Part shown: one piece after another, positions 5,607 to 62,433 of the stretch | How positions within the stretch are numbered: position 1 is the stretch's first letter | Layout: every line of letters begins with the position of its first letter | Assembly: GCA_037176725.1 (NCBI GenBank) | Contig: JAZBRS010000020.1 | Location: 86,994,001 to 87,058,000 of the forward strand | Length of the DNA stretch: 64,000 nucleotides | Direction of reading: 5' to 3' | Origin: Posidonia oceanica | Taxonomy: Eukaryota; Streptophyta; Magnoliopsida; Alismatales; Posidoniaceae | Program-made: the position numbers and the translations under genes | The notes under the pieces: model-generated | Databases searched by the model: none | Told to the model about the DNA's origin: nothing | What the model saw: the letters and a program-made list of their open reading frames with translations, nothing else

Positions 5607-5610
5607 GTTC

Positions 5611-7233
5611 TGTGGATGTGGATTTGGGGAGTGTTTGGATGAAGATAACAATGCTTCCACGACGTCGTTAACTTTGTTGTGATCGCCACTTATCAATGGA
5701 CAGACAAGGCGCCTGGGGAGATGTAGATGATGTGGGTATTCGGTTCACAGGATCGACGGCAGGATGTCGTCCAGTGGCTTCCTCGTGTTACGTGAGCGTA
5801 TTCCTTTTCTTTCAAAACAAATAAAAATAAGAGATCTAGATAAGTTTGTGTGTAGTAAATGACAATAGAAAAAGACAAAGGATAACATAAACAAATGAAT
5901 CTAATACTAACCAGGGGTAATTCCCCGCATGCTTATGCTATGGGTCCTATGTTAAGAAATGCAATATGAAATGAAAAAAAGATTGGAAAAAGATACTCCC
6001 TTCACCCTCATGCTGTATGTAGTGGAGCGAGGAAGTGGAGGCACGGTCGGAGCTCCGGCTAGGCTCGAGATCTCGGGGATCTAGGTTTCTGGATGTAGTG
6101 ATCTCTAGGATCTAGAGTTTTTTTGGATTGATGGTGGGGGCTAGGGTTTCTCTCTTAGAAAATGACTCTCTCTCTAAATGTGGATCCCAAACCCTAAAAT
6201 CTTAAAATTGGCCTCCTCAAACCCTAAAATTTCCCCCCTCGTGCACCGACTCACGGAGCCTTTTTATAGGTTCGTGGGAAACAGGTGGCTCAAAGCTAGG
6301 AAGGTTCTAGAAGTTTCTAGAAGAAAACTGATTTTTAGGGTTAGTCGCCACATAGGGGGGCGACTAGGACAAATATCTCCCGAAAAGATAGAGGAAATGC
6401 CGTGAAAAATATGAAAGACCAGGTCAATCAGAGTCCACATCAGCTAGTCACCGCATATAGTGACGCTTAGCTGCTGCACTATTCCAAGCAACTAAAATAT
6501 TTGTTTCTGATTTTTAGGAGATTCTAAGGGATTGGTTTCTAATTTTTAGGGATTGGATTAGCACATTAAAACGTGTTAAAAAATCAAGATATTTGTTTGG
6601 GGCCACCTAGGATTTTCTAGATTGTTCTTTGATTATTTTATTTATGATATATGTGTTATATCATATATTAAATACGAGAAAATCATATAAATATCAATAA
6701 TTTACGAAAAAAAGTTATAATAGCTAATAAAATTCCCGTATATTATATTAATGCCCAGGATATTAAAATTAAGCTGGAGAGAGAGGTTTGATGCTAGTTG
6801 CCTGTCAGCCTAGTGCCTACACAGTCTAGTCGCCCCTGTGAAAGGCGCTTGGCTACGTCGCCACTCTGGGAGGCAACTAGCTAGGTCTTCTGTATTTTTA
6901 ACCCTGTCATTTAAGTTTAATCCAGAGAAACATGATAAAAGCCCGAAAACTTCAGAGATCTCACGAAATCATAAAAACATCTTCTTTAACTTAAATCTGC
7001 CACGGATTTGAGTGGAATAAAGTGTGCTCAAGGTACTCGGACCTGCCACGAGTCTGAGTGCGTCAGCTATGCCACAACTAACAACCTTGAGTCAATTAAA
7101 ATCAAGCTTTATTTTTATGCAAATCATGAAAATTCCAAAAAAATATGTTATTAAATCTTAGTTATGTGATCTGCGTGCCTTAAGGTTCCTATCCTCTAAG
7201 AACTCTCAGAAATGCGAAAATGGGATATCTACA
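5611..7233 (-). mobile_element. 5' LTR of element E (first copy)
   Basis: 1623-bp LTR in minus orientation, from TGTGGATG to ATATCTACA on the plus strand (TG...CA ends with TGT/ACA inverted termini). A TATA box lies on the minus strand at 6258-6270 (CTATAAAAAGGC). The left edge abuts the primer binding site; the right edge is followed by GAAGT, which matches the target duplication of the copy at 30279. The LTR carries inverted words such as TAGTCGCC...GGCGACTA (6342-6366), with further GTCGCC words near 6830-6890. Confidence 0.8.
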
Positions 7234-7810
7234 GAAGTCTCTATCTCAATTGTTGGTGTCGAGGTCTTTGTGTCGACCTTTGCATCTCTGTCGATCTCTG
7301 TCTCATATCGATCTAGGGATGTTTGTGTGGGATGTTGACCTCTCTGGGTTGTAGATCGTTTGTGGATGGGTACAGATGTAGATCGCAAGTCTCTGTCTAT
7401 ATCGCCAGGGTGTGCATGTGTGTGTTTGTGTTGCAGATCTCTATGTCGCAGATCCTTCTCAACGAAGGAGAGGGCCTTTATTTATAGAGAGGCCGCTCAT
7501 CTTGAATTCAAATATGGATATCTTTTGAATTTTAAGTTCAAAGTAACCAAGAGTAGAATATCTTGGCAATATCTACTACCCTTTTCAAAATAATAATGCA
7601 TGTCGTAGAATTTGTTGAGATGCGCTCGCTATCTTGTTGGTAGATTGGCGAGTTGGTGCAATTTGTTGGTGCATTTTGTTGGTGCATCCTATCATGTAGG
7701 AGCGGGCTAGCCTCCTTTCGTAGGGGTGTGTCGTGCATATTGAGTCTAATTTTGGTGGGCTTCAATTCGTCATGGGCCTATATTGCGCTCGAAATTTCAT
7801 GATGTCAACA
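7234..7810 (-). mobile_element. LTR remnant of gag-only element F (first copy)
   Basis: On the minus strand this segment starts TGTTGACATCATG at 7810, preceded by an AAAAGGAG purine run, as expected for a polypurine tract next to a 3' LTR. A TATA box (TATAAATAAAGG on minus) lies at 7475-7486. The other end is interrupted by element E at the GAAGT target (7234-7238). LTR identity is inferred from these signals; no second LTR of F is visible. Confidence 0.6.
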
Positions 7811-8881
7811 AGCAGTCGATCACTCCTTTTGCTATCGTGGGGGCGTGGTCGATGCTCTTCCATGTGATCTCTATAAGAATCCACCTGAGAATCTGCCTGA
7901 GGGTCAATTCTTGACTGCTCTCTCCTCTGCATCATTATCTTTGCTTTGTTGATCTCATCTACTATTATGTATTTGTTCACTCTTTCCAATGCCTCAACAA
8001 GCGTGGCCACCTCATTCAGGTTATACATGCAAGTGAGCCCGGATGGTCTCAAATCGTACTAAAAAGTAGTGAGGGCAACATCTTCTTTCGGCTCAAGCAC
8101 ATCAATGAGTGCAGCGTTTCACTGCACGTAGCTCCTTAATGTCTCCTTTGGCCTTTGGATGATGGAGAAGAGATGGTTGGAGACCTTCACCCTTCTCCTG
8201 TTCCCCAGGAAGTGGGTGCAGAAAGCACGACTAAGCTCTTCTAACCTGGAGACGAAACCTGTTCTCAAACCAAAGAACCATATCCAACTTGGCCCTCTCA
8301 AAGTGGTTGGAAATAATCTACACAAAATGGCGTCAGAGACCATCTACAATCCCATCAAATCTTTGAAAGCCATGACATGGTCGATTGGGTTGGTCGTCCC
8401 GTTGTATCACTCAAGATGAGGCATCTTGAATCTAGTTGGGAACAGTTCGATCTTAACGACCACCATAAAGGGCGAGTACATGGCTTTCTCCATGCCACTT
8501 AGGAGAGAGTGCACTTTCTTTTCTGCATCTATCTCATGCGTTCCTTCATCTCAGCTACGCGATCTTGCACACCCAGACTTGTGTACCCACTCTGCTCAGT
8601 CCGCTTGGGCACAACACTCAAAGCTGCTAGCACCTTTTCAGTAAGGGAAGGTGAGGACGGCTTAGTCTGCTTGGTCTTCCTCCTCTTGGCATCTCGTCTT
8701 GCCAGCTCCTCCGATAGAAACACAACCTTATCTTGTAGTGCTTTGAAAGCCTCAGGGGTGATCTCCCATGGAGGTGTGAGTTGAAAATTCTTGCGACTGT
8801 GATTGGACTAGTATACGACTGTCTAGAGCGAGAAAAGTTTCCCACAAATGGTAGCAACTGATTTTGCTTGGTGCTCGACAA
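7811..8881 (-). pseudogene. Gypsy gag pseudogene of element F (first copy)
   Basis: The minus strand encodes a decayed Ty3/gypsy Gag. Around 8460-8350 it has FKMPHLE followed by YNGTTNPIDHV. At 8343-8119 it has a segment with ILCRLFPTTLRGPSW, FEELSRAF-like and ETLRSYVQ elements of retrotrans_gag. A further segment at 8052-7811 contains RVNKYIIVDE. Four in-frame stops interrupt the domain, all TGA or TAG, and both duplicated copies share them, so the gene was dead before duplication. The frame runs straight into the adjacent LTR with no protease or reverse transcriptase between, so F was a gag-only, non-autonomous element or an internal deletion. The N-terminal part near 8880-8730 is in a different frame. 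Confidence 0.8.
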
Positions 8882-10287: not shown

Positions 10288-10750
10288 GGGTTTGTTTGGT
10301 TTAGTTTCTAAATAGATTTAGGGGTCTAGATTCTACTAGAAGTCTAAAATACCCAGAAGTTTTGCCAAACAAACTATAGGACACTGATTCTGAGAGAAGC
10401 CAATAGCTTCTAACATATAGAAGGAATCATTTATGAGAGCCTCCAGAGAAGCAAGAATTGACAACTTCTATGACAAGCTATAAGTTTGGTTTTAAAATTT
10501 CAAAATTATAGTTATAATTTTCACCTATTTGTGTGATTTTGCTATTAAAATTTATTAGAAAATGCCATCGAGAGTTGTGTAGTTGGTCTTTTATCGTAAA
10601 AGTTATATCCTAAAATTTACAAGGACTTGCTTTTAATGAAACAAGAATTTAGTTCATAGGTAGAAGCTAACTTCTTTAAATTGGGCAACGAGTTAGATTT
10701 TAGGGTTGGAGTGAGAATCTAGCCTATGACAGAAGCACTATCAAACAAAT
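10288..10750. mobile_element. Possible MITE with TTTGTTTGG termini (first copy)
   Basis: Begins GGGTTTGTTTGGTTTAG and ends near CACTATCAAACAAATT, with an inner inverted pair GTTTGTTTGG/CCAAACAAAC (10290-10374). Such termini are common in plant non-autonomous TIR elements. No clear target duplication was found, so this is tentative. The counterpart is at 34775-35237. Confidence 0.4.
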
Positions 10751-16587: not shown

Positions 16588-17025
16588 CTATGGGTCGATA
16601 TTTAGGACACTAAATCTAGTAAACATGTCACTAATAGATTCATAGGGTTTCATCTTGAATAATTCATATTTATGTACAAGCATGCTGATTTTTATTTCTT
16701 TTACTTGGTTTGTCCCATCATGGGTAACTTCAAGAGTGTGCCAAGCATTATATGAGGTATTATAATTAGAAATTTTATTAAATTGTTCTTGATTTATAGC
16801 ACAGAATAAAATCTTTGATGCCATTTTCTTCTCATCCTCATTCCAATCTCTATATGGTTTTTCATTAAGAGGGAATTCATTTATAACAATGTCCCATAAT
16901 TCATAATTGATAAATTTCAAGTAGATGATCATCCTACATTTCCAATAGTTATAGTTATTTCCATCAAAAAATGATGGTCTATTTATACTTTATCCTTCTT
17001 CAACATTATTGCTCGAAGAAGCCAT
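16588..17025 (-). pseudogene. Ty1/copia gag fragment (first copy)
   Basis: Minus-strand frame from an ATG at 17025. It starts MASSSNN, has RPSFFDGNNYNYWKCRM, then DWNEDEKKMASKILFCA and HKYELFKMKPYESISDMF, the arrangement seen in the copia Gag domain (UBN2/Retrotran_gag). An in-frame TAA lies at codon 12. The frame is lost after 16588, and no integrase or reverse transcriptase follows, so only the 5' end of a copia element remains. It lies just downstream of its primer binding site and LTR. Confidence 0.85.
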
Positions 17026-17066
17026 AATCAAGAAGGCTGTTAAATCTTTCACTTAGATAAACCTTG

Positions 17067-17078
17067 TTCTGATATCAA
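17067..17078 (-). other. Copia primer binding site (first copy)
   Basis: Minus-strand TGATATCAGAAC directly after the LTR end, close to the initiator-Met tRNA primer site TGGTATCAGAGC. Confidence 0.7.
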
Positions 17079-17080
17079 TT

Positions 17081-18215
17081 GTTAGATCTATAGACTTCTC
17101 TAGAGGGGGTGAATTGAGAATTTAAAAATTTAGTGATATTAACTCAATTTTAATTACTTTAACTAGGAACAATTATTTGATCATATGATGAATTTGAGAA
17201 CTCAAGCTAATATATGCAAAGAGAGGGGATGAGAGATAATGATAATGCTCAAGAATTTATAGTGGTTCGACCAATCCCGACCTACTCCACTCCTCGAGAA
17301 TCCCTCGGGACTTTTCTTAAACTAATACTTACTTGTCTTGACAAACCCTTCGCCAAGCCCCGCTCAAATCCATCGTCTGTTGCTCCTCACCGCTTGAGAA
17401 GCACTAAGCATTTGGTCTTTAAAGCAAATTACAACTCGAATATTTTCTACAATCTCTCAAAACACTTTTGGCAATGTGAAAGGATGAGAATGATGCTCTC
17501 TTGCTTAAACATGGAAATACTAGTTGGGAAATGCTTGGGAACTTTTCTCACAAGATGGGAATGGAATGCTTGAGTGTTGGATGTTTGTAGGTGAAGATGG
17601 GGGTCTATATTTATAGGAAAAAGTGAGGAAAGGGGTGTTTCTAATATCTATAATTTTCCCCCAACGACTAGTAAATCGGCATACCAAAAATAATTCGGTT
17701 GGCCGATTTACTGCTGTTGTTAACAACAATCGAGCAATTCGGTAGATTGAAGATGATTCGGTACGCCGTATTGGTTTTTGGTTGTAAACCTTGTACGCTC
17801 TGATTTCGGTATACCAAAAATATTCGGTATGCCGAAATGTCTCCTGAACATATTTCTTGTGATATTTTTAAAGGTGTTTACTTAGGCTATTGGGTTATTC
17901 TATATTCCTAGGGTTTTGGGATGTTCGGGAGATTTTTACACATTTCCTATGTACATAAAAAGAAAAATTACATCCACAGAAGCACAATTGACTTATTTTA
18001 TTTCTTCTATCTTGAATGTCGTCTTGATTCCTTCTCGAATTTTTCTTGAGATCTTCATGATGACTCATGGATCTTCCTTCATGATACATTTCTTCATCAT
18101 TCTTCTTGTATCGTCACCTCAGAGTCCTTTCTTCTTGTACTTGGATATTCTTCAATTTGTCAAGCTAAATATTTCTCAAAAACCACATTAGCTCAAATAA
18201 AATATTTTGTTATCA
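17081..18215 (-). mobile_element. Copia 5' LTR (first copy)
   Basis: 1135-bp minus-strand LTR starting TGATAACAAAATA at 18215 and ending GATCTAACA at 17081, next to the primer binding site. The TATA signal CTATAAATATAGAC on the minus strand lies at 17603-17616. An 11-bp perfect inverted repeat (AGTAAATCGGC at 17670-17680, GCCGATTTACT at 17702-17712) and a near-palindrome ATTCGGTATGCCGAAAT (17822-17838) are present. Confidence 0.75.
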
Positions 18216-21087: not shown

Positions 21088-22500
21088 TCACTTGTCCATG
21101 GCAGCAAGAAGTGCTACCTTCAAACCGTCCTCATCTCGCAACCTGGCAGGTGGCTTTGCCACCAGGTCCTGCAGCATGAGCTCCCCGACGCTCGAAATGC
21201 TTGCATGCTGCACCTTCACGTCCAGATCTCTCAACGCATCCATCACCCTCGCAGACGGGCACCCGCGGTTCACCGACTCCACTCGGATCATCGCCTCCGT
21301 CCCCAACATCCTCACCTCCAGCCTCATCGCCACCGTCGCTGCCTCCGACTTCAGTCCACCTCTGCTCCTCAACGACCCTTTGCTACTGCTACTGATGACA
21401 GAAGCTTCCACCTTGGGTGAAGTAGTATTGGTCTTCTTGTCTTCAGTTTCCAGCTCTTCTACTTTGCATTTGAGTTCACTGATGTAGGCAACGGCGTCGG
21501 CGAGCAGTGACGCCTTGTCCATCCTCGACACGTTGGGGACGACGGACCGGAGCCTGTAGAACCGGTGGTTGAGCTTCTCCCTCCTCTGCCGCTCCGCCTC
21601 CACATGGTTCACCGGCACTTGCCGCCCGTTCACGGCCAGCTTCCTCCCTCGCTTCTTCGCCTGGCGTCTCCCCATCACCAGCGCCCCCCACTCCGAATCC
21701 GAATGCTCCGAGTCCACCACGGCCGCCAATGGGTCCTTCCTGTTCTTCGGGACCTCCTTATCGGCGGTCGTGGACGGAGGCGTAGCAGTGGTGGCAGTAG
21801 TTGTCGTGGGTGTCGTAGCGGTGTCGAGCAGATCTGCAGAGCCAAGAAGGGCCTTGGCCTTCTGAACCGTAGCCCAGCTCTCGGCCACCAGCACCGACGA
21901 CCCAAGCTCCAGTACCCCTCCGTTACCGGTGGGGATGAAAGCAAGCGTCTGAACCCCGTACAAATGCGCCTCTCGGGAACGGTCACATCCATACGCCTGG
22001 AGTTCGTGGCTCCCACAAAGCCAGACCGGAGCCCCAGACTCCAGCGCCCGGATGGGAACGCTGTGGTCTCCAGTGACGAACGATCTCGCTGCGGAAAGAG
22101 CATAGAACAGCTCTACATCCGTGATAGTGCCGTTGTTGGTGATGTCGGAGTTGGTGTCGTCGTTGACGAGAGAGCGGACGGATCTGATCTGGGACATCCT
22201 GGTCCCTCGGAAATGACCCTCCCCCCATGAGAGATGGGGGTAGGCGGTGATGCCGGGGATTACGGCGACGGTGATGGAGTTGGAAGTGGAGCGCCAGAAG
22301 ATGGCGTAAGCCCACCACTCGGGGCGGGATTGGAGGAGGTATTGGAGGAGGTTCAGGAGGGAGAGGGGTTGGATTGCAGCTGCACTGGTTGGGATGGGAA
22401 ACGATTTGATCATGCTGCAGCTACTCGTTGTAGATATTGTTGGATACTGCTCGTGGTGGTGGAGGAAAGGATTGGGAGGAGAAGAAGAATGACCTGCCAT
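21088..22500 (-). CDS. MYC2/JAM-type bHLH transcription factor, copy 1
   Basis: An intact intronless 470-residue protein. Residues about 48-208 form the bHLH-MYC_N domain ([27 protein letters not shown]), including the region that binds JAZ repressors in MYC2 relatives (about 127-205, ending GGVLELGSS). A Thr/Pro/Ala-rich linker (226-245) and a basic stretch ([10 protein letters not shown], 278-287) follow. The bHLH domain is at 297-348, with the His-Glu-Arg pattern of G-box binders in HVEAERQRR. Residues 389-470 form an ACT-like C-terminal domain ([20 protein letters not shown]). Subgroup IIId/IIIe members act in the nucleus in jasmonate signalling. At 470 residues it is shorter than MYC2 and close to bHLH3/bHLH14-like members; activator or repressor cannot be decided. 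The frame is open for 44 more codons upstream (to 22632), but the second copy lacks that extension, and the chosen ATG has good context (GAAATGG). Confidence 0.93.
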
Positions 22501-22707
22501 TTCTCCCTTCTTTTTAATGATTATTGTTATGTCAGGACAAGAGAAGTGAAGAATGAAGATGGTGATGGAGAGGGGAGAGGGGAGAGGAGTATAGGACCAG
22601 AAGTGGAATAAGTTTTCATTGAAGTTATTCATATTGTATTTAATGTTATCTAGTTACATTTGGTCATATACTTCTTCTTTTTCCTACTTTTCATTGAATT
22701 CTTCTTC

Positions 22708-24846: not shown

Positions 24847-24847
24847 G

Positions 24848-26770
24848 TGTAGACACCCCGATTTTGCGGTAATCTGCTGATAGACTCCTCCAGAAGATTC
24901 GATCTGGCCGCTCTAGGAAGCTCTGCCACACCTCCAACCACCCAAAATCCACTCCCAAGCATCAAGTCAACCCTTGGTTCAAATAGTCTAACTTTAGCCA
25001 AAGATCCACTAAAACAAACCTCATACTGGATCAAGCGCAATCAACTAGCGTGGGTCACCGGCGTGTGTCTCAGGTGCACCTTCCGAGCATAGGTCACAGG
25101 TGTAGTTTGTCCACGTGGTGCTCTGTCCCAGTTTCACTACAAAAGGGTAAACTTGTCTTATCACTTTTGGACGTGAATTTCGAGCCTTATCATTGGCTCT
25201 TACGAATTTGATGATATTGTTTGATATGTTTGGACCATCATACCCCCTTTCATACACACAAAGCTCAATCAAATCCTTTAAATCCAATCCCAGCCTTTCA
25301 TCTTACACCATCTTTTCATCCAATGGCTATTAACAACCACAACACCTATAAAACACCCACGTCTACCCATGACGAGGGGCTTCTTCGTCTTCGACTGTTT
25401 GGGCTCCTTCTTCTACTCTCTTCTCAACTCCTTCTACTCTCCTTCTTCCTCCCCTCATGACCTGAGTGACCAGAACCGTGAGCAAGAGTGAGAAAGAGAG
25501 AGTACCTTGAGCAAGTGAGAGCCACCTCCACATCCCGTCCTCCACCGTAAACCATCCACACCCTCACGCTTGCCCGTCACAGCCTGGAGTGTGTGGAGGT
25601 AGCAACCCGGAGCATCTTGGAGGAGTCTCGATGTGAGAAGCCGTTGTAGGCTTGGAGAGGAGAACATCTGGAACTCTGCGTGAAAGGTCAGGCCCTCCAC
25701 TCGAGGTTGTAGGCATGCTTCTACTACATTGTCATTGCAACGCCTCTGTTTTACCCTGGTGGTTTGTCATTTGGTTTTGTTTTGCTGTTTTGTTTCTGAT
25801 GCCTGCATGTGTTGGGTTCCATTATTTCTCTTAGTGCTTCTCGTTGTTTTGCTACAATACGTAGTCATGGCTTCACATTTTACTCTTTGCTCTTTCTCCT
25901 TCTTCAATCGTAGAGCCCATCTGAGGTGGTCCTAGCCTTGGGAATCCTGTAGTCCAAGTATCCATGCAAACGTGGAGCTAGGACCCATTTGGGTTCCAAG
26001 TGACAAATATGGGTTAATCGATTCATGCTTTCTTTGATTCAGTTTTATTTCGATTGTGTTGTCTTCTTACATTAGTTTACATCGTTCTTGGATGCCTTAC
26101 TTCTTCTCTGGGATTTCGGTTTGTGGGTTTGAATTATGTGTAATGATCAATGATAGGTGAAAGCAGAACATAGGTTCTGGGCATGTCTGGTGGGCACGGG
26201 CATCCTATGTGAGTATCCAGCGTAGGCCTGCAGTGCAGTTACTCACGTGGTTCCCCGGCGCGGTCCCCTGGTCCACATCTTGGTAGTCGTAGTTAAGCAC
26301 CTCTTATGCTTAATTGCTTCTCCACTCTTGGTTTTCAGCAATTTGACTTCTCTCCTTGCATGTGTACTTATGCTTGCATAACATCTCCTTTGTTGCCTTT
26401 CACATTCCTTGGTTGCCTTTGTTTATTTCCTTTTTGTCACACACATGAGCAGTTAAACATAGTGAGACCAACGTTGTTGGGCTTGTGGGGGTGTCAAACC
26501 CCTTCCTTGTACGTAACAGGAGTTCCTACCCCTTCTCTGACTGTGAGGATCTCGTCTGCTTTGTCCATTGGCAATGGAGACTTGCACTTTTATTTTCTTG
26601 CAGTTTTCATCATCTCTTGCTTTAAGTAGACTAGGTGGCGACCCCTTCTTTATCCCTTTCTCTTGCTTTTCTTAGTGTTTTCAAGTAGAGATCTGACTCG
26701 GAGATACCGCCTTTCGTGGCCTTCAGTGCGCGACTTCGCCTTGTGCCTTGGTTTCCTCACCATGGTCACA
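24848..26770 (+). mobile_element. LTR B, 5' LTR with primer binding site (first copy)
   Basis: 1923-bp plus-strand LTR from TGTAGACACCCCGATTTT to GGTCACA, immediately followed by GAAAC and the primer binding site. A TATA box (CCTATAAAACACC) lies at about 25345-25356. It sits one base to the right of the TIR element. The frames inside (such as 25045-25287 minus) are not genes. In the second copy it is cut by element D at the position matching 26494. Confidence 0.75.
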
Positions 26771-26775
26771 GAAAC

Positions 26776-26793
26776 TGGTGACTCCATTAGGAA
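26776..26793 (+). other. Primer binding site of element B
   Basis: TGGTGACTCCATTAGGAA after LTR end CACA and GAAAC. This matches the Tat/Ogre-type arrangement, usually assigned to tRNA-Arg. Confidence 0.7.
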
Positions 26794-26933
26794 GGAAAGT
26801 GCAGAGTGATTCACCTAAATGCGTGAAATCACAAGGTTTGCGTCGAATGTGCCCCTTCCTCTCCTGCCACGACTCTTGAGAAGTGGGAAGTGCAGAACAT
26901 GTTGGAAGATCTGAGGGTACGACTGTGGATATG

Positions 26934-28446
26934 GGATTTTGAGGGAGAAGATGTTTTTTGTTTATTTAGCATTCTCATGCCCCCTTGATTTGTATCCGAT
27001 TTCTCCACTCCACGTGTGTTGAAGTCAGTGTGATCGCCACTCCAGGTTTGCTTTCGCTGGCCCTCGAGACGCCTTGGGAGATGTGATATGTGTTGCGGGT
27101 TCAGCTACCTTGGAACAACGCCAGTGTTGCCCAAGGGTGTCCGTGCTTGGTAAGTTTCTTCTTCTTCTTTTCTTTGCAAAACAAATTCAAAGATGCAATT
27201 AAATATAGTGTAGTAAACGATTCAAAGCAAATTGAAAATTAATATTAAATGAAAGGAGGAATACTTACCCGAGGGGTTTTATCCCCCCGGTTGCAACTAA
27301 ATATGACTATGCCTAGCTACAACATGCAATAGAAATGAAAATGCAATACGCAAAAATATTAAAAGAAAACCCCCTTTTTATATGATGTATATGCGGAATG
27401 CAAGATGTGGTCGGAGACCGTAGAAGAACTATGCTCTTTGGCACTCTCTTTTCTCTCTTTTCACTCTCTAATTCTGATAATTCCTTTCTCTATTTTCTCT
27501 CTGCCTCTTCCCAATTTCCTCTCACTCTCCAAAAAACCTCCTCAACTCCCAAAAAAAACGTCTCCCTTTAGGCTGTGGGGGTACTCCTGCTTTTATAGAA
27601 GCAAGGGAAGAACAGATATGGATTAAATGGCCAGATCAGCAAACTTTCCAATTTAGAGGTGTTATAAGCGGGAATCCTAGCGTATAATGTTAAACGTGGG
27701 AATCCCAGCGTATAACAACCCCCGAGGTATAGCTGCCAGGATAAAGGAATATTCCCCTAATAAGATTGATTAAGAGTCATTAAGCCAGTTTTAATTGCCT
27801 TGACTGGTCAACAGACTCCAAAGGAGGCATGAACATGGATTTCGTATTTGGCCAGATAAGGAAAGTTGTGGAACACAATTCAGAGGTGTTATACGCTGGA
27901 ATGCCAGAGTCTAACGTTAAACATAGAAATCCCAGAGTCTAACGTTAAACGTAGAAATCCCAGAGTTTAACACACCCAAGTTGCAAGCTTGCCAAATTTG
28001 GCCTCTCAATCATGGGGACATGTGTCAATCAAATAAAGAGGTAATTATGACTCTATGGATAAGGAGCATTGACCTGTTTGACTTTGAATAATTGGTTTGG
28101 GTCCAAAAGAAAAGTTGGGCTAATATGGAAGGAAACTGAACTGGATACGTTAAACGTAGGGATTCACGCATATAACGTTAAACACAGGGATTCACGCTTA
28201 TAACGTTAAACGCGGAGATTCACGCTTATAATTTTAAACGCAGGGATTCCCACTTATAACGTTAAACATAGAGATTCACGCTTATAACGTTAAACGCAGG
28301 GATTCCCGCTTATTACGGTCCGGACTGGTAATTGAGCTTTTGGAGAGTACTTAAGCTGAGCAAATTGCTTCTAATGATGAGTGGTGCATGATATAGTGCA
28401 GTGGTATCTAAAAATGCAAGGAGAGTGTCAAAACGGGGTATCTACA
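26934..28446 (-). mobile_element. LTR C, 3' LTR, inserted in element B leader
   Basis: 1513-bp minus-strand LTR running on the plus strand from TGTGGATATGGG to GGGGTATCTACA. Its left edge resembles the E LTR (TGTGGAT, GATCGCCACT, GGGAGATGT), so C and E are related families. The TATA box (CTATAAAAGC on minus) is at about 27589-27600. It interrupts the leader of element B only 140 bases after the B primer site. The left-edge assignment rests on similarity to E. Confidence 0.7.
27655..28325. repeat. GTTAAACGYRGGGATTC word cluster in LTR C
   Basis: About a dozen copies of a word near GTTAAACGCAGGGATTC followed by ACGCTTATAAC. They are in close tandem (about 34 bases) at 28145-28320 and dispersed at 27655-27970. 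Some are near-palindromic, such as TTATAAGCGGGAATCC with TAGCGTATAA. Confidence 0.85.
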
Positions 28447-28462
28447 GATTGCCCCTCCTTGT
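28447..28462 (-). other. Polypurine tract of element C
   Basis: Minus-strand AAGGAGGGGCAATC directly before the LTR start TGTAGATACCCC: the usual polypurine tract and 3' LTR junction of plant gypsy elements. It fixes the orientation of C. Confidence 0.8.
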
Positions 28463-28584: not shown

Positions 28585-28880
28585 CGGATGAAGAGACACG
28601 GCCAAGTGCATTGCCCGAGGGGGTCAGACTAAAAGACACAGCCACGGGGGTTGCCCAAGGAGGTCAAACTAAAAGACACGGCCACGGAGGTTGTCCGGAA
28701 GGGTCAAACTAAAAGACACGGCTACGGGGGTTGCCTAAGGGGGTCAAACTAAAAGACACGGCCGCGAGGGTTGTCCACGGGAGTCAAACTAAAAGACACG
28801 GCCACGGGGGTTGCCTGGGGGGTCAAACTAAAAGACACGGCCAAGGGGGTTGTCCGAGGGGGTCAAACTAAAAGATGGGT
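28585..28880. repeat. 41-42 bp tandem array in the 3' region of element C
   Basis: About seven units of GGTCAAACTAAAAGACACGG followed by CCACGGGGGTTGCC, ending 130 bases before the polypurine tract. Tandem arrays in the 3' untranslated region are a known property of Tat-lineage elements. Confidence 0.9.
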
Positions 28881-48356: not shown

Positions 48357-48521
48357 TGGAAGAGTTGAAGAGTATGGGAGAAGCAAAGGAGAAAAGGATA
48401 AGGAAACTTGGAGAGATGAATTCAAAGGAAGAGAGAATGCAGACAGCTAAGGTGGTGGCCATATAACAAACTGTAGGAAATATTTGTGAATTAGTAGACC
48501 ACCATTTTAATAAATCTAATG

Positions 48522-49213: not shown

Positions 49214-49214
49214 G

Positions 49215-50857: not shown

Positions 50858-53800
50858 TGTAGTAATCCTGAAATTCTGATCGTCCATGCACGATGCCAAA
50901 GCTTGCGTGCACCGATCAAAATAGGCTCACTATATGCGGTAGGATCCGAGGGAAGAAACTTGACTCGAAAATGCTGGCAAAAGAAGGAAAAAGAAATGAT
51001 AAGACAAATCGAAGTTGCCACCAGGTCTATTGAGTTGAGAGATAGGGAAAACTGAGGGTAATGCATGGAAAGACATGCAAAACTAGATGCAAAGAGATGC
51101 GATGCAACACAATGCGATGCTATGCTATGCTATGCTATGACTCGTGCCTAGGATGAAGGAATGGTCATTACGGGTCAAGAGAAAGGGCAATGACTCCTGT
51201 TACGCACGGGGAAGGTGTTAGGCACCCCCGATACGTCCGAGAGTGGGTCCTTCTTAGGCAATCTCGCTCGCTAATGCAGGAAGATGCTTGCCTAATGCCT
51301 AAATGCAATGAATGTCTGATTGCTATGCATGGGAAATAAACGTGCTATCTATGTGCTCAGCAGCACTGCTAGTGTTCCAAACTAGGCGAACCCTAGTTCG
51401 TGAGAACTCCTAGGCAGTAAGCATCATTACCCTAATGCAAATGCTGGCGATAAAGCAAAACAGCGAGGAAAACCATGCAATGCAAACGACATGCAAGGGA
51501 TAAACCAAAGCAGGCACAGAAAACGGTGCAAGTGCGGGAGACGATGCGAAAGCGCAGGAAATGATGCAAGAGCACGGAAAATGATGCAAAGGCACGGAAA
51601 ACGATGCAAAGGCACAGAAAACTATGCAAGCATGGGAAATGATGCAAGCGAGCAACATGCAAAAGAGAAAGCGAAAGCGAATCTAGGGCGAAAACCTCGA
51701 GAAAGCGTGCAAGGCAAGGTGCAAAACCAAAACAGGGGTCAGGTAGCATGCATGGGAGTAGCAGTATGTATAAGAAGCGATAAAACACAGAAAACGGTGA
51801 ATGAAACCAAATCGGCGTTTTAAAATCAGGTTCAGCCAATTGCAAGCGTTGGACGCTGGCAACTCCAACATCCAACACCTGCTGAAGGCGAACAGCATGC
51901 AGTTTTCAAAAAGGATGCATTCTAGCTATATGAATGCGATGCAGATGCAGAAATGCAATAGAAATGGGTGCATGACATGTAGAGCAAACAGGACAGCAAA
52001 CCAGAAGCAGATTCAGAGCAAGATGCAAGCAAAGATCAGCATTTTAAACAAGCAGGGCGTTGGACGCCCGAGGGCATGGAGTCCAATGTTAGACGCCAGA
52101 GGGACTGGCGTCCAACACAGGCTAAAGGACAGCAAAGCAAATAAGCATCCAGATGATAAATAAAGTATTGAAGTATGCATTTAGGCTACTGTAAGCAAGC
52201 ATAGGCTAAACATGCAAGCATGGGATATGAAAAATTCAAGAAGAAACAACATCTACAACGCGTGCCAGGCATAAAGCTCAACCAGAGCGTTGTACGCGAG
52301 CTAGACCTACGTCCAACGTTGGACGCGAGGAACAGCAGTGTACAACGCACTGGGAGGCACAAACAAACAAACGACCCGCATAAAACTTGCATATGAACTA
52401 AGAAAGCTGAGGGACAGTTGCCATGAAGGCCAAGCAAGCATACAAGTACAGAGATCATGCAAACATAGGGATCAGAGCATCATGCAAACACTTAGAACCA
52501 AAGTGAAAGAGCAGCAACGTTAGACGTTGGTAGCAGCAGCGTCCAACGTAGGACGCTGAAGCCCCCAACGTCCAACACATGTAGAATGCAAACCCACCTG
52601 CAAAGGGGGAGCTCAGCTCTAAACCCCACTTAAACATGCATGCAAGCTACTGATGACATGCCAGATCAAGAGAAAACACTCATACCAAGCATATAATCCA
52701 TGAGAAACAAATAAAAAGAGCATGCATAAGAGTAAAGGGGTAAAAAACCCAAGAAAAATTAGCATGCAACTTGAGAGGAGATTAGATAGCCTAAACATGG
52801 TTGCCATAGGGGCTAGGCATCACTAAATATGCATGGATCAAGTATAAATCTCAAAAAGAAGCAAGATACAAGCATGGCAGCAGATATGAGCTAGCAGACA
52901 TGTAGGACGCTGGATGATCCAGCGTCCAACGTTGGACGTGGCTCACTCTAGCGTCCAACACAGGTAGACAGCAGAATGACCTAAGGCATGCAAAAATGAT
53001 CCAAACAAGGATCAAAACAAGGAAGCAGGCATGGCATAGCATCTGAAAATATGTAAGGAAAGCATGCAGAACAAACTCATAAAAGGCAAGCAACAGCGAA
53101 GCATGGCAAGCTTCAAAGCAAAAGCAAAGGTAGATAAGGCATAGCAGGGTGTTGGACGCCTGACCTTGCAGCGTCCAACGTTGGACGCACCAGGCTGTGC
53201 GTCCAACAAGGCGATGATCTTCCTGGCCAAGAACAGCGGCCAAATCGATCAAAAACCTCAAACAAACTTGCTAGTAAGCAAGTGTGACCGATAACAAGCA
53301 TGATGGTATGCTTGGTGTCGGAGATAGGTGGGTGGATTGCTCCACCCACATCCTCCTCCTCGCGGCCGGAAAGCCAAGGCGAGGAGGTGTGTGTGCTATG
53401 CAAGAAGGCATGGAAATCATCTAGAAACGTTCATACACTCATGCATGAGCAACGGGGATCAAAAACCAACCTTGCCGCGGCCTAAGGTGGCTGTTCACGT
53501 TCTTCGCCGGCGTTGCGGAAGCTTGCGGCAGGCGGACTCTGGCGAGGTCGCAGGACGTGTAGGAGGCACGGGAGAGGGCGCCGAAGGTCTGGGAGTGAAG
53601 GTGGGAGATCACTCTTCGCTCTGGTAACGCTCAATTTTCTCTCGGGCAAGTGTGGTGAGGTCTGCAATGGTGTGAAGGTCGCTGTTTGTTGGGTGGGTGA
53701 CTGGGTTCCTCCGCCAGTGGCAGAGGTTGTAGGTGTGGCAAAGGCTCTTGCAGGCAATGGCAGGTGAAGCTGGGTGTATGGAGGCCATGAGGGTTGTCAG

Positions 53801-54365
53801 GTGGAGGCGTGGGACTTGTTAGAGGGTCGGGGAAAGTCGTTGGTGGCAGGAGAAACATGGCTGATGGCAATGACCGCGGAGGAGAGCAGTTTGCCCACCG
53901 GGGAAGGAAGGGACGGCTAGTAAGTGGACTAACTTCGGCTTGGAAGGTAGTGGATGGCTTGGAGTGCATGAGAGGATGGGTAGTAAGTGCATACGAGCGG
54001 TGGAGAGGACGGGAGGTTAGCCGAAGGTGGTGGAGCAGCCGCTATAGCTTCCAGGTCGTTGGAAACTAGTGCAGAGCACATCCAACGTTGGATGCTAGCA
54101 CAGGACGCGTCCAATGTTGGACGCTGCCCGTGCCAGCGTTCAACATGCCCAGGAGGCCAAAGGCTGAAATGGGCTTGCGCTTGGGCATAAAAAAGGTTTA
54201 AAAAGGTGTAGAAGGCTTGGGTTAAGGTTTTGGGGTTTTGGTAAGATTTTAGGTTTGGTTTTGGGTAGAAATGGGTTAGTCTAAAAAAAGAGAGCCATCC
54301 AAGAGTCCAAGCAAGCCTACAGGAGAAATCACCAACTTCCAGGCTGTCAGAATGGGGTGTCTACA
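50858..54365 (-). mobile_element. 3' LTR of Tat-lineage element D
   Basis: 3508-bp minus-strand LTR with 5-bp inverted ends: TGTAGTAATCC at 50858 and GGGGTGTCTACA ending at 54365. It is followed on its right by a polypurine tract, so it is the 3' LTR. It is rich in ATGC words (ATGCT microsatellite at about 51115-51138) and carries a cluster of GCGTCCAACGTTGGACGC palindromes. Open frames inside, such as 51432-51878 minus, are by-products of simple composition. Confidence 0.85.
52075..54125. repeat. GCGTCCAACGTTGGACGC palindrome cluster in LTR D
   Basis: Perfect or near-perfect copies of an 18-bp palindrome at about 52085, 52312, 52540, 52920, 53170, 54078 and 54108. Most are flanked within 30 bases by half-sites (GTTGGACGC before, GCGTCCAAC after). 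The order and spacing match the palindromes in the D2 LTR (60338-62215). Confidence 0.9.
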
Positions 54366-54380
54366 GATGCCCCTCCCTGA
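54366..54380 (-). other. Polypurine tract of element D
   Basis: Minus-strand AGGGAGGGGCATC directly before TGTAGACACCCC. It fixes D as minus strand, with its 3' end at the left. Confidence 0.85.
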
Positions 54381-54825: not shown

Positions 54826-56340
54826 AGAAGCAGCTTGTCCTCACCCGAGGAACCAAGCAAGAAAGAGAAAGAGAAAGGGGGAAGGCAAGCGTGGGCATCG
54901 TCAGCCCGGAGCGAAGCCACATAAGGGCTGATCCTCGCACGAGGATACATGGAAGGACTCCGAGCATATGGGGTCTGAGAGGAGCTTGTCCTCGCTTGAG
55001 GAAGCAAGCGCGAAAGGGAGAAAGGGGGCAGACAAGCGTGGGCATCGTCCGCCCGGAGCGAAGCCACGCAAGGGATGATCCTCGCACGAGGATACAGGGA
55101 AGGACTCCGAGCATACGGGGTCCAAGAAGAGCTTCTTCTCGCCCGAGATAGCAAGCAAGAAAGGGAGAAAGGGGGAGGGCAAGCGTGGGCATCGTCCGCC
55201 CAGAGCAAAGCCACGCAAGGGCTGACCCTTGCACGAGGATATAGGGAAGGACTCCGAGCATACGGGGTCCAAGAAGAGCTTGTCCTCGCCCGAGGAAGCA
55301 AGCAAGAAAGGAAGAAAGGGGACAGGCAAGCGTGGGCATCGTCCGCCCGGAGCAAAGCCATGCAAGGGCTGATCCTCGCACGAGGATACAGGGAAGGACT
55401 TCGAGCATACGGGGTCCGAGAAGAGCTTGTCCTCACCCAAGGAAGTAAGGAAGAAAGGGAGAAAGGCGGAGGGCAAGCGTGGGCATCGTCCACCTGGAGC
55501 GAAGCCACGCAAGGGCTGACTCTCGCATGGGGATACAGGGAAGGACTTCGAGCATACAGGGTCCGAGAAGAGCTTGTCCTCGCCCGAGGAAGCAAGCAAG
55601 AAAGGAAGAAAGTGGGCAGGCAAGTGTGGGATCATCCGCCCAGAGCGAAGCCATGCAAGGGCTGATCCTCGCACGAGGATACGGGGAACGTCTCCGAGCA
55701 TACGGGGTCCGGGAAGTGCTTGTCCTCGCCCGAGGAAGCAAGCAAGAAAGGAAGAAAGGGGGCAGGCAAGCGTGGGCATCGTCCGCCTGGAGCGAGGCCA
55801 CGCAAGGGCTGATCCTCACACGAGGATACAGGGAAGGACTCCGAGCATATGGGGTCCAAGAAGAGCTTGTCCTCGCCCGAGGAAGCAAGCAAGAAAGGGA
55901 GAAAGGGGGCAGGCAAGCGTAGGCATCGTCCGCCCAGAGCGAAGCCATGCAAGGGCTGATCCTCGCACGAGGATACAGGGAAGCACTCCGAGCATACGGG
56001 GTTCGAGAAGAGCTTGTCCTTGCCTGAGGAAGCAAGCAAGAAAGGAAGAAAGGGGGCAGGCAAGCATGGGCATTGTCCGCCCGGAGCGAAGCCACGTAAG
56101 GGCTGATCCTCGCAAGAGGATACAGGGAAGGACTCCGAGCATTCGGGGTCCGAGAAGAGCTTGTCCTCGCCCGAGGAAGCAAGCAAGAAAGGAAGAAAGG
56201 GGGCAGGCAAGCGTGGGCATCGTCCGCCCGGAGCGAAGCCACGCAAAGGCTGATCCTCGCACGAGGATACAGGGAAGGACTCCGAGCATACGGGGTCCGA
56301 GAAGAGCTTGTCCTCGCCCGAGGAAGCAAGCGCGGCCTCC
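54826..56340. repeat. 147-bp tandem array in element D
   Basis: Ten units. The anchor CGAGCATA or a close variant lies at 54961, 55108, 55255, 55402, 55549, 55695, 55842, 55989, 56136 and 56283: spacing 147 in eight intervals and 146 in one. Each unit contains two self-complementary stretches, TCCTCGCCCGAGGA and TCCTCGCACGAGGA or variants. Because 147 is divisible by 3, long frames open on both strands (for example 55632-56780 minus and 55574-56455 plus), but they are artefacts of the repeat. The array sits between the broken RNase H and the 3' LTR, where integrase would normally be. Confidence 0.95.
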
Positions 56341-56925
56341 GTGTGGACGGAGACGGAAAAGGCTTGTCCTCGTCCGAGAAAGCAAGCAGGGGATTCCGTG
56401 TGGACGGAATCCAAAGGGGGCTTGTCCTCGCCCGAGGAAGCAAGCTGCAGTCTGATCCTTGCCTGAGGAAATAGACAGGGGACTTCGTCTGCACGGAGCG
56501 AAGTCACCCGGGGGCATGTCCCCGATCGGGGAAACAAGCGGGCCTGATCCTCGCCCGAGGAAACAGGAAGGACTTCGTTCGCACGGAGCGAAGTCGCAGG
56601 GGGCTTGTCGTCGCACGAGGTAGCAAGTAGGCTTGTCCTCGCCCGAGGAAGCAAGCAAGCGGGACCCCGTCTACACGGAGCGAAGTCACACGAAAAGAAA
56701 AGGAAAAAAGGCTTGTCCTCGCCCGAGGGAGCAATCAAGAAACAAAAAGAGGGCTTGTCCTCACCCGAGGAGGCAAGCAAGAAAGGAAAAAAGGCTTGTC
56801 CTCGCCCGATGAAGCAAGCGGGGTGTGCATACGCTTATCCTCGGTCGAGGAATAAGCGGGCCTGATCCTTGCCCGAGGAAATAGGGAAACTCCATCTGCA
56901 CGGAGCTGTGCAGGGCTTGTCCCTT
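56341..56925. repeat. Irregular hairpin-rich extension of the array
   Basis: Shorter units (about 50-100 bases) that keep GCTTGTCCTCGCCCGAGGAA but alternate with other self-complementary blocks, such as GGATTCCG...CGGAATCC, GACTTCG...CGAAGTC and CCCCGATCGGGG. It ends against the RNase H fragment at about 56925. Confidence 0.85.
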
Positions 56926-58349
56926 GCAAAGGGGATCATCTACCCCTGTGGCGTGGTCAGCACTATGCCTATGCCTCGACCCTTCTTATTGACAGTGCCA
57001 TCAAAGTACAACCGCCATTGCTCTGGATCTTCAGGGTCCTTCTCCTCAAGGTCCTCCATTGCAAAGAGGATGTCATCATCTGGGAACTGTGTCTGGAGAG
57101 GCTGGTATTCAGGCAAGGGAAAGTCTGCAAGGTGATCCGCCATGGCTTGGCCCTTCATGGCTTGCTGCGTGACAAAGGTGATGTCGTACTGAGACAACAG
57201 TACCTGCCACTTGACGCATCTGCCTACCATTGCTGGCTTCTGGAAGAGGAACTTGATGGGGTCATGTTGGCATAGAAGCCGAACTAGATATGCCATCATG
57301 TAGTGCCTCAGCTTCTGTACAGCCCAGAAGAGGGATAAGTAGGTCTTCTCCATTGTGCTATACCTAGCTTCGCAATCATTGAACTTCTTGCTCAGGTAAT
57401 AAATTGCATGCTCCTTTCTACCAGTTTTGTCATGCTGGCCTAAGATGGTGCCCATGGAATGCTGCGTGGTAGAGAGGTAGAGAAGCAGAGGTCTCCCCAG
57501 CGTGGGAGGGACCAAAACAGGAGGCTTGGTCAGAAGTTGCTTGATCTTGTCAAAGACAGCTTGGCACTCCTCGCTCCAGTTAATCTGTACATTCTTCTTC
57601 AGGAGTTTGAAGATCGGTTCGCAGATAGGCATGAGCTGTGCAATGAACCAACTGATATACTATAGACGTCCGAGCAGGCCTCAGACTTCTTTCTCTGTCT
57701 GGGGGGGTGGCATGTCCACGATGGCCTTTGCCTTCATCGGGTTCACTTCAATCCTCCTCTGGCTAACAATGTAGCCCAGGAGCTTGCCCAAAGATACCCC
57801 GAATACGCATTTACTGGGGTTAAGGCGCAGCTTGTACTTTCTCAAGCGGTCAAAGAGCTTCCTTAAACAGGCAAGGTGGTCCTCAAGCTCTTTGGTCTTG
57901 GCAATCATATCATCCACGTAGACCTCAACTTCTTGATGCATGAGGTCGTGGAAAAGTACAGTCATGGCCCTCTGATAGGTTGCGCCAGCATTTTTCAGCC
58001 CAAATGGCTTAACTTGGTAGCAAAAGACACCCCAAGGGGTGATGAAGGATGTTTTCTCCATGTCCTCTTTTGCCATTCTGATCTGGTTATAGCCAAAGAA
58101 GCCATCCATAAAGGAGAGCATTTTATGGCCTGCAGTGTTGTCGACTAGGATGTCAATGTGCGGTAGTGGGAAATCATCCTTAGGACTCGCCTTGTTCAGG
58201 TCCCGGTAGTCGATGCACATACGGACTCATCCATCCTTCTTGGGCACTGGCACAATGTTTGCAAGCCACTCAGGGTAAAGGACGACCTTGAGGATGTTAA
58301 CAATGTGCTGCTTCTTGATCTCCTCTTTGATCATGAGCAGCCACTGCGA
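56926..58349 (-). pseudogene. Reverse transcriptase and RNase H of element D, decayed and truncated
   Basis: Minus-strand Ty3/gypsy pol fragment. It contains CIDYRDLNKASPKDDFPLP, FGLKNAGATYQRAM and the catalytic YVDDM (residues 101-104 of the 57681-58220 frame). A gypsy RNase H region (KEHAIYYLSKKF, AVQKLRHYM) follows, and then the start of a second, archaeal-type RNase H (LYFDGTVNKKGRGIGIVL, about 56943-57020). A dual RNase H is diagnostic for the Tat/Ogre lineage. In-frame stops lie at 58350, 58227, 57681 and 56940. The second RNase H ends near 56925 where the tandem array begins, and no integrase is found, so the element could not move by itself. Confidence 0.9.
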
Positions 58350-60017: not shown

Positions 60018-60095
60018 TTCTGCTACTGCATTAGTGAGTGCCTAGCAAACTGATCGAGGCACTGTCACGCTGAGTTGATCCTTACTGCTGGCTGG
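60018..60095 (-). mobile_element. Internal fragment of D before the D2 insertion
   Basis: 78 bases of D internal sequence. The last five, GCTGG, would be the target duplication if D2 inserted here. Confidence 0.5.
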
Positions 60096-62433
60096 TGTAG
60101 ACACCCCATTCTGACAGCCAGGAAGTCGGTTGTTCTCTTTTGCAGGCTCGTGTGGACTCTAGAATGGCATCCCTTTTCTAACCCATTTTCTAGCCCCAAA
60201 ACCAAACCCAAAACCTTGCCCCAAACGTTAGAAGCCTTTACCAAGCCTCTTTGCATCTTTTACAACACTTCTAAGCCCAAGCCCAAGCCCATTTGCAGCT
60301 TATGCCACCTGAGTGTGTTGGACGCTGGAACAAGCAACGTCCAACGTTGGACGCGGCCTGTGCTAGCGTCCAACGTTGGACACCCTCTGGTCTGGCGTCC
60401 AATGACTTGAGAGCAGCAGCGGTTGCTCCGCCCCCTCCAGCTCACCAGCCATCCAATCCCGCGCCTCCCCACACTTACTACCCGTCCCTTCCTCCACTTC
60501 ACGCCATCCACTACCTTCCAAACCTAAGTAACTACCCATCTCCTCCATATCAGCCGAAAACAAGCTCTCTAACCTCTCTCTAATAGGGCTAACTTCCACC
60601 GCCCGTGTCAGCCACCGCCTTGCCTTCGCCGGCCTCCTGCCAATGCCCACGCCCTCCTCTGACATTCCACATGGACCTCTCACACTCACCCACACCTGCC
60701 AGCACCTGAATCCGTCAGAATTCAGCCTGCAACACCTCTGCCAAGCACAAGAACCCATGCCATTTGCACAAAACCGCAACTTCATGCCTCTGCCACAGTC
60801 ACCACACAGAGCTGAGGAGAGAATTCCCACTTCCGAGAGCAAAAAGGCACTCCCCTCTTCGCCCGTGATCTGTTGCTAGCCTCTCCGGCGCTCCGAGCTG
60901 TCCAGGCGACCTCGCCGAACTTGCTGCCGCAGCACACCTGCAACTCCAGCAAGCTTGGTGGAGCACGCCGTTCCAGGTCTTCAAACGGTAAGCCAACTAT
61001 CCCCTGTAGTCTTGCATGCGTAGTAGAGCGTTCCCATGCAACTTAGCAATTTATTTGACTCCTCTTGGACGTGATTCACATCCAAGAGAGAGTTTAGTGT
61101 GTTGGACGCACCAACTGGTGCGTCCAACGTTGGACGCCTGCTATAGCAGCGTCCAACACTCTGTTTAGCTTTGCCCTTGTTTGAATGCTTCCTATGCATT
61201 ATCCTTGCATGCTTTCCTGCAGACCCATGCAATATGATTCCTGTGATGCTTTCTGATGTGGTGCCATGCTTTTTAACTTATTCCATGCTTGTTTGAATCC
61301 TTTTTGCATGCTTGATGCTCGGTTTGCCTCCTACTTGCGTTGGACACCAACGTGAGCTGCATCCAACGTTGGACGCTGGTTCACCTAGCGTCCAACATAT
61401 CTGCTTGCTTTGCTTTGCTGCGATGCCTATGTCTTGCATATTCTTGATATTATTTTGTGATCCATGCATGCTTAGAGATGCTTGGCCCCTATGGCAACCA
61501 TGCTTAGGTTTGCTAGGATTTCTTTAAGCTATTTATTCCTTTTTGCAAGTTTGAAGCCTATTCTTTCATGCATGCTTCCTTTTATCTTGTCTTCTTGGAT
61601 TAAATGCTTGCCATACTTGATGTGAATGTTTCTTTCTTGTTATGGCATGCTTCAGTAGTTGCATGCATGTAGGTGGGTCTGAGCTGAGCTCCCCCTTTAG
61701 AATAGGTGAGTCTGCATGTCTGGGTCATTGGACGCCAGAGCCTTCAGCGTCCAACGTTGGACGCTGCTGGCTCTAGCGTCCAACGTCCTGGCTCCACATT
61801 CATTTGTTTAAAGCTTGCATGCCTTTCTGATCTCCTTGTTTGCTTATCTCCTATGTTCTTATGCATGTCTAGCTTCTCCAGCAACTATTCTTTAATTTCA
61901 ATGGATTTATTTGCTTGTTTATGCATGTCTTTTGTGTGTTGTGCCTCCCAGGGCGTTGTACGCTGCTGGAGTTGGCGTCCAACATTGGACGCTGGCCTAG
62001 CTCGCGTCCAATGACTTGGTTGCGTCTCTGACCTGGCACATGCTGTAGGTAAGGTCTGAGTTGTTTTTCTTAAGCTTCCCATGTTTGCTTGCTTGCCCCA
62101 TGCTCACCTCCAGTGGCCCAAATGCATGATCCCCACTCTCATCTATCATTTGTTTGCTCCCTTCTCTCCTCTGTCTTCTGTTCTTGTTGGATGCCAGCCA
62201 CTCTGGCGTCTAACGTTGGACGCCCAGCCTACAGGCGTCCAACAACCTGCTAGCTTGAATCCTTGATTCTGGCTTGCTCCTTGTTCTAATCCCTCTTCTA
62301 ATCTTCTGTTAGGTTAGTCTTGCATGTCAGGCACCCATTTAGCTGCATATCTGCATCTGTATTGCATCCATATAGTTAGAATGCATTGTTTCTAAAATCT
62401 GCATGCTGTCTGCCTCCAGCAGGTGTTGGACGC
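60096..62433 (+). mobile_element. LTR D2, plus-strand LTR of the D family, truncated
   Basis: Starts TGTAGACACCCCATTCTGAC at 60096 and is homologous over its length, inverted, to 54365-52000. It is therefore not the 5' LTR of D, which would have to be in minus orientation. It is probably part of a second element inserted into D. About 2.3 kb of an expected 3.5 kb is present before LTR G begins. The copies differ at many positions, so the two elements are not recent sisters. Confidence 0.85.
60310..62250. repeat. GCGTCCAACGTTGGACGC palindrome cluster in LTR D2
   Basis: Copies or variants at about 60338, 60366, 61116, 61360, 61747, 61974 and 62205. Spacings of roughly 244, 387, 227 and 231 for the last five mirror those in LTR D (250, 380, 228 and about 225). 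Half-sites flank each copy. Confidence 0.9.

Follow-up and report, generated by a model that had tools for sequence, protein, structure and literature searches.

What are the short self-complementary words that recur in the long terminal repeats (LTRs) of different retrotransposon families? The question is raised by a 64,000-nucleotide stretch of the Posidonia oceanica genome (assembly GCA_037176725.1, contig JAZBRS010000020.1, positions 86,994,001 to 87,058,000; hereafter the window), in which the initial annotation named such words in four LTR families, E, copia, C and D (the last represented twice, as D and D2), and proposed hairpins, protein-binding palindromes useful in LTR transcription or a host process that amplifies the words. 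All of the words named are present. In our best reading, which we hold to be moderately probable, they form promoter-upstream arrays of dyad sites bound by a protein, and D and D2 provide the strongest evidence for it.

D and D2, which self-comparison of the window showed to be similar but inverted, are one LTR family, about 63% identical outside the words. Their half-site R (GTTGGACGC) and its complement H (GCGTCCAAC) make up a unit R-N11-H, and neighbouring units abut without a gap. In total 27 units were found, 14 in seven D modules and 13 in six complete D2 modules; the spacer is N11 in 25 of them and N10 in two, and the N10 exception sits in the same module of both LTRs (D 53180, D2 61101). 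T2 and A6 are invariant in all 54 half-sites. The whole window was also scanned blindly for two adjoining units, whatever their sequence, with spacers of 3-25; this lattice scan gave 23 matches, compared with a mean of 2.3 and a maximum of 6 in 20 block shuffles; 17 of the matches fell in D/D2 (12 distinct modules, some found twice; 14 at spacing 11), one in C and five elsewhere. In both LTRs successive modules are about 211-249 bp apart, except at two gaps, of 383-388 and of 784-907.

Alignment of D with D2 set the half-sites apart from the sequence around them. Identity was 207/234 (88.5%) in the half-sites, 91/142 (64.1%) in the spacers, 211/356 (59.3%) in the 30-bp flanks and 992/1576 (62.9%) in the rest, and none of 2307 circular shifts of the labels that mark half-sites gave as large an excess in them. 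It was present both outside CpG (91.3% versus 62.5% elsewhere) and at CpG (82.2% versus 50.0%); the CpG observed/expected ratio of the whole LTRs is 0.66 in D, 0.51 in D2 (0.33 with half-sites masked), 0.68 in C and 0.72 in E, and 0.58 in the window. Spacer length was also unchanged: all six shared modules aligned without internal gaps. As a caveat, the units were selected by D2 sequence and by a consensus learned from both LTRs, for which the neutral expectation is a scant effect on identity to D. Outer half-sites had 0.80 changes per site (n = 20) and inner ones 0.63 (n = 24; P = 0.41); this similar decay indicates that the half-site itself is kept, and not only the AACGTT junction between units. 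Binding of a bZIP-type protein at this junction alone was rejected, since the outer half-sites decay no faster than the inner ones.

Since R-N11-H units can pair, selection might instead have preserved hairpins, in RNA or in single-stranded DNA, that serve packaging or feed small-RNA silencing, the latter having been proposed for maize Sireviruses. Palindrome clusters in maize Sirevirus LTRs are reported to be small-RNA hotspots (PMC10760457, PMC5311732), and G-U accounts for 10 of the 30 mismatched arm pairs in D/D2. However, covariation of the arms was absent in D/D2: compensation was found at 1 of 31 non-consensus positions, as in permutations (mean 1.16). Spacers showed no complementarity (41/125 self-pairing versus 42.5 permuted), and the arms of C, which carries the related unit R-N10-H, are systematically mispaired, pairing at position 5 in 2 of 11 units (mispaired in 9/11) and at position 7 in 4 of 11 (mispaired in 7/11). 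Selection for hairpins thus appears unlikely, and hairpins may form as a side effect. The lack of compensation and of spacer pairing, the mispairing in C and the retention of outer half-sites together favour a protein that reads duplex half-sites at a fixed distance. It also seems quite unlikely that the words are functionless minisatellite by-products, produced when slippage or unequal exchange copied a short unit over and over. Such an origin would suit C, a true 28-bp tandem array of mainly direct repeats (148 versus 6.8 in shuffles) made of imperfect dyads, where amplification of the words is evident, and other arrays occur in the same window. It is disfavoured for D/D2, in which the 11-base spacers of different units are nearly unrelated (mean identity 0.32 among 13 in D and 0.29 among 12 in D2, versus 0.26 by composition), the D2 half-sites are 0.905 alike among units, and orthologous half-sites outlast spacers.

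The history of the array bears on the same point. All six complete D2 modules (13 units) lie at positions common to D, and the extra D module at 51848 falls at the D2 break, where one half-site remains. The 12 inter-module segments include 10 shorter than 400 bp, which were compared in pairs. Among these, the five orthologous pairs gave z of 12.5-36.5 and the other 40 pairs 0.9-6.0 (mononucleotide shuffles). Because the modules are positionally shared, the inter-module pieces orthologous and the spacers unrelated, the array is older than the D/D2 split and not a fresh amplification of words, and for this family the host process that the initial annotation had suggested was not borne out. Word-hopping or double-hairpin mobile units were rejected, with D2 modules at D positions and non-orthologous inter-module segments at most weakly alike. 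Another candidate for the reader of the site is a DNA-binding protein that the element itself encodes, for instance an anti-silencing or a transposition factor. Protein and half-site would then co-evolve, in the way of VANC and its motifs in VANDAL elements. In favour of this, the letters of the half-site change from family to family, yet C and D share the layout, and the D modules spread over 2.3 kb. Against this, no such protein was found: Pfam searches with a set of retroelement open reading frame pieces gave only gag, reverse transcriptase (RT) and RNase H at or above the cut-offs, and the 10 matches of a 413-amino-acid piece comprised six with a reverse transcriptase domain, one with PF01585 and three without a listed domain, whose names do not indicate DNA binding. 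We regard this candidate as very improbable.

How far the other LTRs share the pattern of D/D2 was assessed by counting inverted 8-mers with at least three G/C within 200 bp and comparing the counts with 500 dinucleotide shuffles; values below are the numbers of shuffles that reached the observed count. D (44 versus 7.6 expected) and D2 (64 versus 6.3) exceeded every shuffle (0/500 each). The first copy of E (E1, 5611-7233) gave 14 versus 3.0 (0/500; 13/500 for the part upstream of the TATA box, 6269-7233) and the first copy of the copia LTR (copia1) 6 versus 1.3 (9/500). The second copies gave 1/500 (E2) and 0/500 (copia2), but they are not independent evidence, because both sit in a 21-kb duplication. 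In seven non-LTR controls the values were 14 (positions 1-5000), 58, 89, 277, 345, 403 and 500 of 500. When the G/C filter was removed, C (P = 0.040) and copia (P = 0.020) were in excess, as were three of the seven controls at P < 0.05 (1-5000, 0.045; 18-26.4 kb and 28.46-30.27 kb, 0.000). An inverted 8-mer is thus no mark of an LTR in itself; those that contain G/C and stand at fixed spacing do better. The count of hairpin-like pairs with 9-base arms gave z of 17.7 in D, 16.3 in D2, 4.7 in E, 3.9 in copia and 2.1 in C, and 6.0 (18-26.4 kb, above E and copia), 3.2 (28.46-30.27 kb) and 2.9 (9.6-16.5 kb) in non-LTR segments. Perfect 10-base palindromes with at least four G/C were reached by 0 of 500 shuffles in D2, 23 in D, 32 in E1, 33 in E2 and 48 in C, one non-LTR control being in excess as well (45/500), and the copia LTR had none. 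When spacings (L) were ranked, L=11 came first in D2, in none of the seven controls, and second to L=13 in D, a ranking for which it is relevant that odd spacings share centres.

The words themselves are TAGTCGCC at 5217, 6342 and 6827 (copies at 31011 and 31496) and GGCGACTA at 6359 (copy 31028) in E; ATTCGGTATGCCGAAAT at 17822 (copy 42298), AGTAAATCGGC at 17670 and GCCGATTTACT at 17702 (copy 42178) in copia; GTTAAACG five times within 27689-28289, TTATAAGCG at 27662 and CGCTTATAA at 28195, 28223 and 28279 in C; and GCGTCCAACGTTGGACGC at 53171, 61120 and 61747 in D/D2, with its 14-base core at seven places. The complement of GTTAAACG was found twice outside LTRs, at 14502 and 38975. The recurrence of self-complementary words in four families, as originally described, holds firmly for D/D2 and moderately for E and copia; in C the words form a dyad only of an imperfect kind. 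The statement that the words differ between families is half true: by eye, the half-sites GTTGGACGC (D/D2), GTTAAACGC (C) and GTTAGTCGC (E), which were chosen, that of E by the analyst, agree pairwise at 7 of 9 positions, but E has T in place of the A6 that D and C share. Comparison of the C, D and E LTRs at an E-value of 0.01 gave a single similarity, a 42-bp stretch of 79% identity between C and D, in opposite orientation.

In C, 11 units R-N10-H with R = GTTAAACGC stand back to back, and dyads at L=0 exceed shuffles (1/200 reach the observed count). The start of this LTR and its polypurine tract (PPT) are D-like, and no gene of the C element was identified; its left end is uncertain because of the 42-bp similarity to D. 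In E, six spacing-11 dyads were counted (reached by 3/200 and 11/500 shuffles), and L=11 was the most enriched spacing among 0-30; over 5200-7233 there were seven (3/500). A 40-bp tandem repeat of seven copies lies just upstream, in the sense orientation, of the C LTR, at 28594-28875.

The copia LTR looks Sirevirus-like, because it combines a 14/16 match to the Sirevirus junction between LTR and primer-binding site (PBS), CA/ATTGG-TATCAGAGC, with CGG/CCG words. Over the whole window such a match would not be unusual by chance (mean 0.59 with three mismatches or fewer; the two matches are one site and its duplicate), and the weight lies in its position, beside gag, where the LTR end is expected. 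No 3' LTR of this element was recognised in the window (the Sirevirus PPT is AGGGGGAG, 10 bp before the 3' LTR). Palindromic boxes with a CGG-CCG core (CGGTTGGCCG, CGGTACGCCG and CGGTATGCCG) lie within 17670-17838, making three full boxes and partial words in a single LTR; the Sirevirus type has at least eight copies per element, and its boxes form CpG islands. The copia words thus appear to be of a kind already known: Bousios et al. 2010 (PMC2829016) described palindromic repeated motifs in Sirevirus LTRs, where they lie upstream of the TATA box and 12 of the 13 have a CGG-CCG core. This weakens the argument, made originally, that the design recurs even in Ty1/copia.

In E, copia and C a TATA box follows the nearest dyad in the sense direction, 71, 54 and 63 bp downstream, respectively; among 1000 shuffles each, a TATA match within 100 bp occurred in 27 for E, 25 for copia and 13 for C. 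The copia LTR has a second match 408 bp downstream, and a looser pattern matches once more in C, at 27382. A promoter-upstream position of the dyads matches these three families, and with the conserved half-sites and constant spacing of D/D2 it supports that part of the initial annotation which spoke of protein-binding palindromes for LTR transcription; in D/D2 themselves no TATA box marks such a position.

Several observations weigh against the reading of the words as promoter-upstream protein-binding arrays. The link to a promoter fails for the strongest family, because there is no sense-strand TATA match in D or in the present part of D2, and one antisense match in D. The conservation result is carried by the single diverged pair D/D2, and since these LTRs are orthologous, their 31 arm changes are not all independent. 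Exact inverted 8-mers are not enriched in C (6 versus 4.2; 136/500 with the G/C filter), which for these words gives the density similar to shuffled LTRs that the initial annotation had named as refuting its idea, while D and D2 stand above all shuffles. C has no dyads at L=11 (0) and a weak, borderline signal at L=10 (20/200), and copia has no dyad excess at L=10 (110/200) or L=11 (44/200). Within 5200-7233, L=36 draws level with L=11 in E, and among the gaps between consensus words 39 (four) is ahead of 11 (three). Finally, the LTR bounds are putative, each being anchored at one end by a TG start, purine tract, TATA box or, in one case, primer site, and the left end used for E (5611) is no more than the edge of the duplication.

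In the mechanism that we favour, a dimeric or multimeric protein, which may drive transcription of the element, would bind double-stranded inverted-repeat sites upstream of the promoter, in the U3 part of the LTR, and the words would be the half-sites. The D/D2 site would be GTTGGACGC-N11-GCGTCCAAC repeated back to back, mostly two or three times per module; C would have units of this arrangement but with N10 and GTTAAACGC, E would have a few N11 sites, and copia would have CGG/CCG palindromes. The families may share a factor, or may have converged. That one host regulator family reads the three Ty3/gypsy-type LTR families, and perhaps the Sirevirus as well, through GTT-NNN-CGC half-sites at N10/N11 (about one helical turn) we consider rather unlikely: A6 of D and C is replaced in E, and copia lacks a spacing excess. 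If it were true, unrelated retrotransposons of one host would share a promoter code with a spacing rule, and the letters particular to each family would record either escape from the regulator or co-evolution with it.

The arrays are best read as a Ty3/gypsy counterpart of the Sirevirus repeated motifs (PMC2829016) with a stricter spacing rule. The two are alike in being palindromic, in many copies per LTR, upstream of the TATA box where one was found, and with family-specific letters around a shared symmetry, and the copia LTR adds CGG/CCG words and the Sirevirus PBS junction. They differ in that D and E adjoin Ty3-type genes, C having the same kind of LTR start, in that the half-sites GTTAAACGC, GTTGGACGC and GTTAGTCGC of C, D and E have no CGG-CCG core, and in that D and C form a fixed R-N10/11-H lattice with gapless neighbours, which section 9 and table 3 of PMC2829016 do not describe. 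The host elements of D and E are not Sireviruses, judging by Retrotrans_gag next to E and RVT_1 and RT_RNaseH beside D, provided that these belong to the same elements. A 2016 study, as cited in PMC10760457, also found palindrome clusters in the LTR regulatory region, with GGAC/GTCC resembling the TTGGAC/GTCCAA of D; there the arms are 3 bases apart, compared with 11 in D, and secondary structure was stressed, in contrast to the lack of arm covariation here.

Ty1/copia LTRs also contain repeated MYB-type boxes, such as the L-box of Tto1, to which a host factor binds. These boxes are short and lie upstream of the promoter, as is proposed for the arrays here; to our knowledge, they have not been described as an inverted lattice of constant spacing. 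The titles and abstract starts of the literature surveyed, which reached few subscription papers, mention no fixed-spacing dyad array in Ty3/gypsy LTRs. In the same literature, palindromic LTR motifs of plants are treated chiefly in connection with Sireviruses, in part as structures that attract small RNA. D/D2 offer a clean evolutionary test, in which half-site letters and spacer length were kept and spacer letters and arm pairing were not. The pattern points to protein binding, and the exact probe GTTGGACGC-N11-GCGTCCAAC could pull out the factor controlling a retrotransposon family.

Table. Coordinates of the LTRs, dyad modules, TATA boxes and element genes in the window
Feature	Position	Strand	Remark
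E TATA box	6262..6269	-	71 bp to nearest unit
E unit	6340..6368	-	GTTAGTCGC-N11-GCGACTAGG
E unit, weaker	6853..6881	-	CTACGTCGC-N11-GCAACTAGC
gag piece adjoining E	8122..8343	-	Retrotrans_gag, E-value 8.8e-7
copia gag	16591..16989	-	Retrotran_gag_2
copia LTR end/PBS	17066..17081	-	14/16 to Sirevirus junction (motif from PMC2829016)
copia LTR TATA box	17609..17616	-	54 bp to nearest dyad; second match at 17262
copia dyad	17670..17712	-	exact 11-bp arms
copia dyad	17803..17838	-	13-bp arms, one mismatch, 10-bp spacer
C LTR	26495..28447	-	typed as Ty3/gypsy from LTR start and PPT alone; position of left end uncertain; TGTAGATACCCC start after AGGAGGGGCAATC
C TATA box	27591..27598	-	63 bp to nearest unit
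C module	27661..27716	-	2 units R-N10-H
C module	27888..27971	-	3 units
C module	28149..28316	-	6 units (28-bp tandem array)
D LTR	50858..54366	-	Ty3/gypsy by neighbour; putative bounds; starts TGTAGACACCCC after PPT-like GGGAGGGGCATC; sequence read
D module	51848..51876	-	1 unit R-N11-H
D module	52059..52116	-	2 units
D module	52289..52346	-	2 units
D module	52519..52576	-	2 units
D module	52902..52959	-	2 units
D module	53151..53207	-	2 units (one N11, one N10)
D module	54058..54144	-	3 units
RNase H and RT pieces (RT_RNaseH, RVT_1)	56943..58226	-	element with D as putative 3' LTR
D2 LTR	60097..62434	+	broken at about 62435 by another LTR-like start, TGTTGACACCCC; sequence read, alignment
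D2 module	60317..60403	+	3 units
D2 module	61101..61157	+	2 units (one N10, one N11; N10 shared with D 53180)
D2 module	61339..61396	+	2 units
D2 module	61727..61784	+	2 units
D2 module	61955..62012	+	2 units
D2 module	62186..62243	+	2 units

No paired LTR of D was found in the window, and a scan of viral contigs for D modules, a collection unsuited to a plant element, gave no match. At 51209-51226 lies an 18-base motif, GGTGCCTAACACCTTCCC (D sense strand), with a diverged counterpart (four mismatches) on the opposite strand at 26490, the presumed end of C. At 62425-62435 the LTR-like start TGTTGACACCCC breaks D2 right after a half-site R, as if a nested element had inserted in a unit spacer. 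Tandem arrays with the word CCTCGCCCGAGG occupy 54826-56819, after the RNase H piece of the element upstream of D, where the remaining pol is expected; one array consists of ten 147-bp copies.

Self-comparison of the window revealed that 5611-26494 is repeated as 30279-50860 with about 97% identity over about 21 kb, and beyond this duplication no direct LTR pairs were seen. The searches run for known RNA families (at the gathering threshold) and tRNAs gave none. The duplicated segment contains the E pieces, the copia LTR pieces and a plant gene of the bHLH/MYC type (21091-22653, minus strand), which is surrounded by retrotransposon remains; its best two matches come from the Araceae genera Colocasia (52% identity over 82%) and Anthurium, and other monocots follow (among the best 120 of 2082 matches), which points to a probable monocot host. 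Both copies of the duplication stop at an identical GGGGG point, where C adjoins one and D the other.

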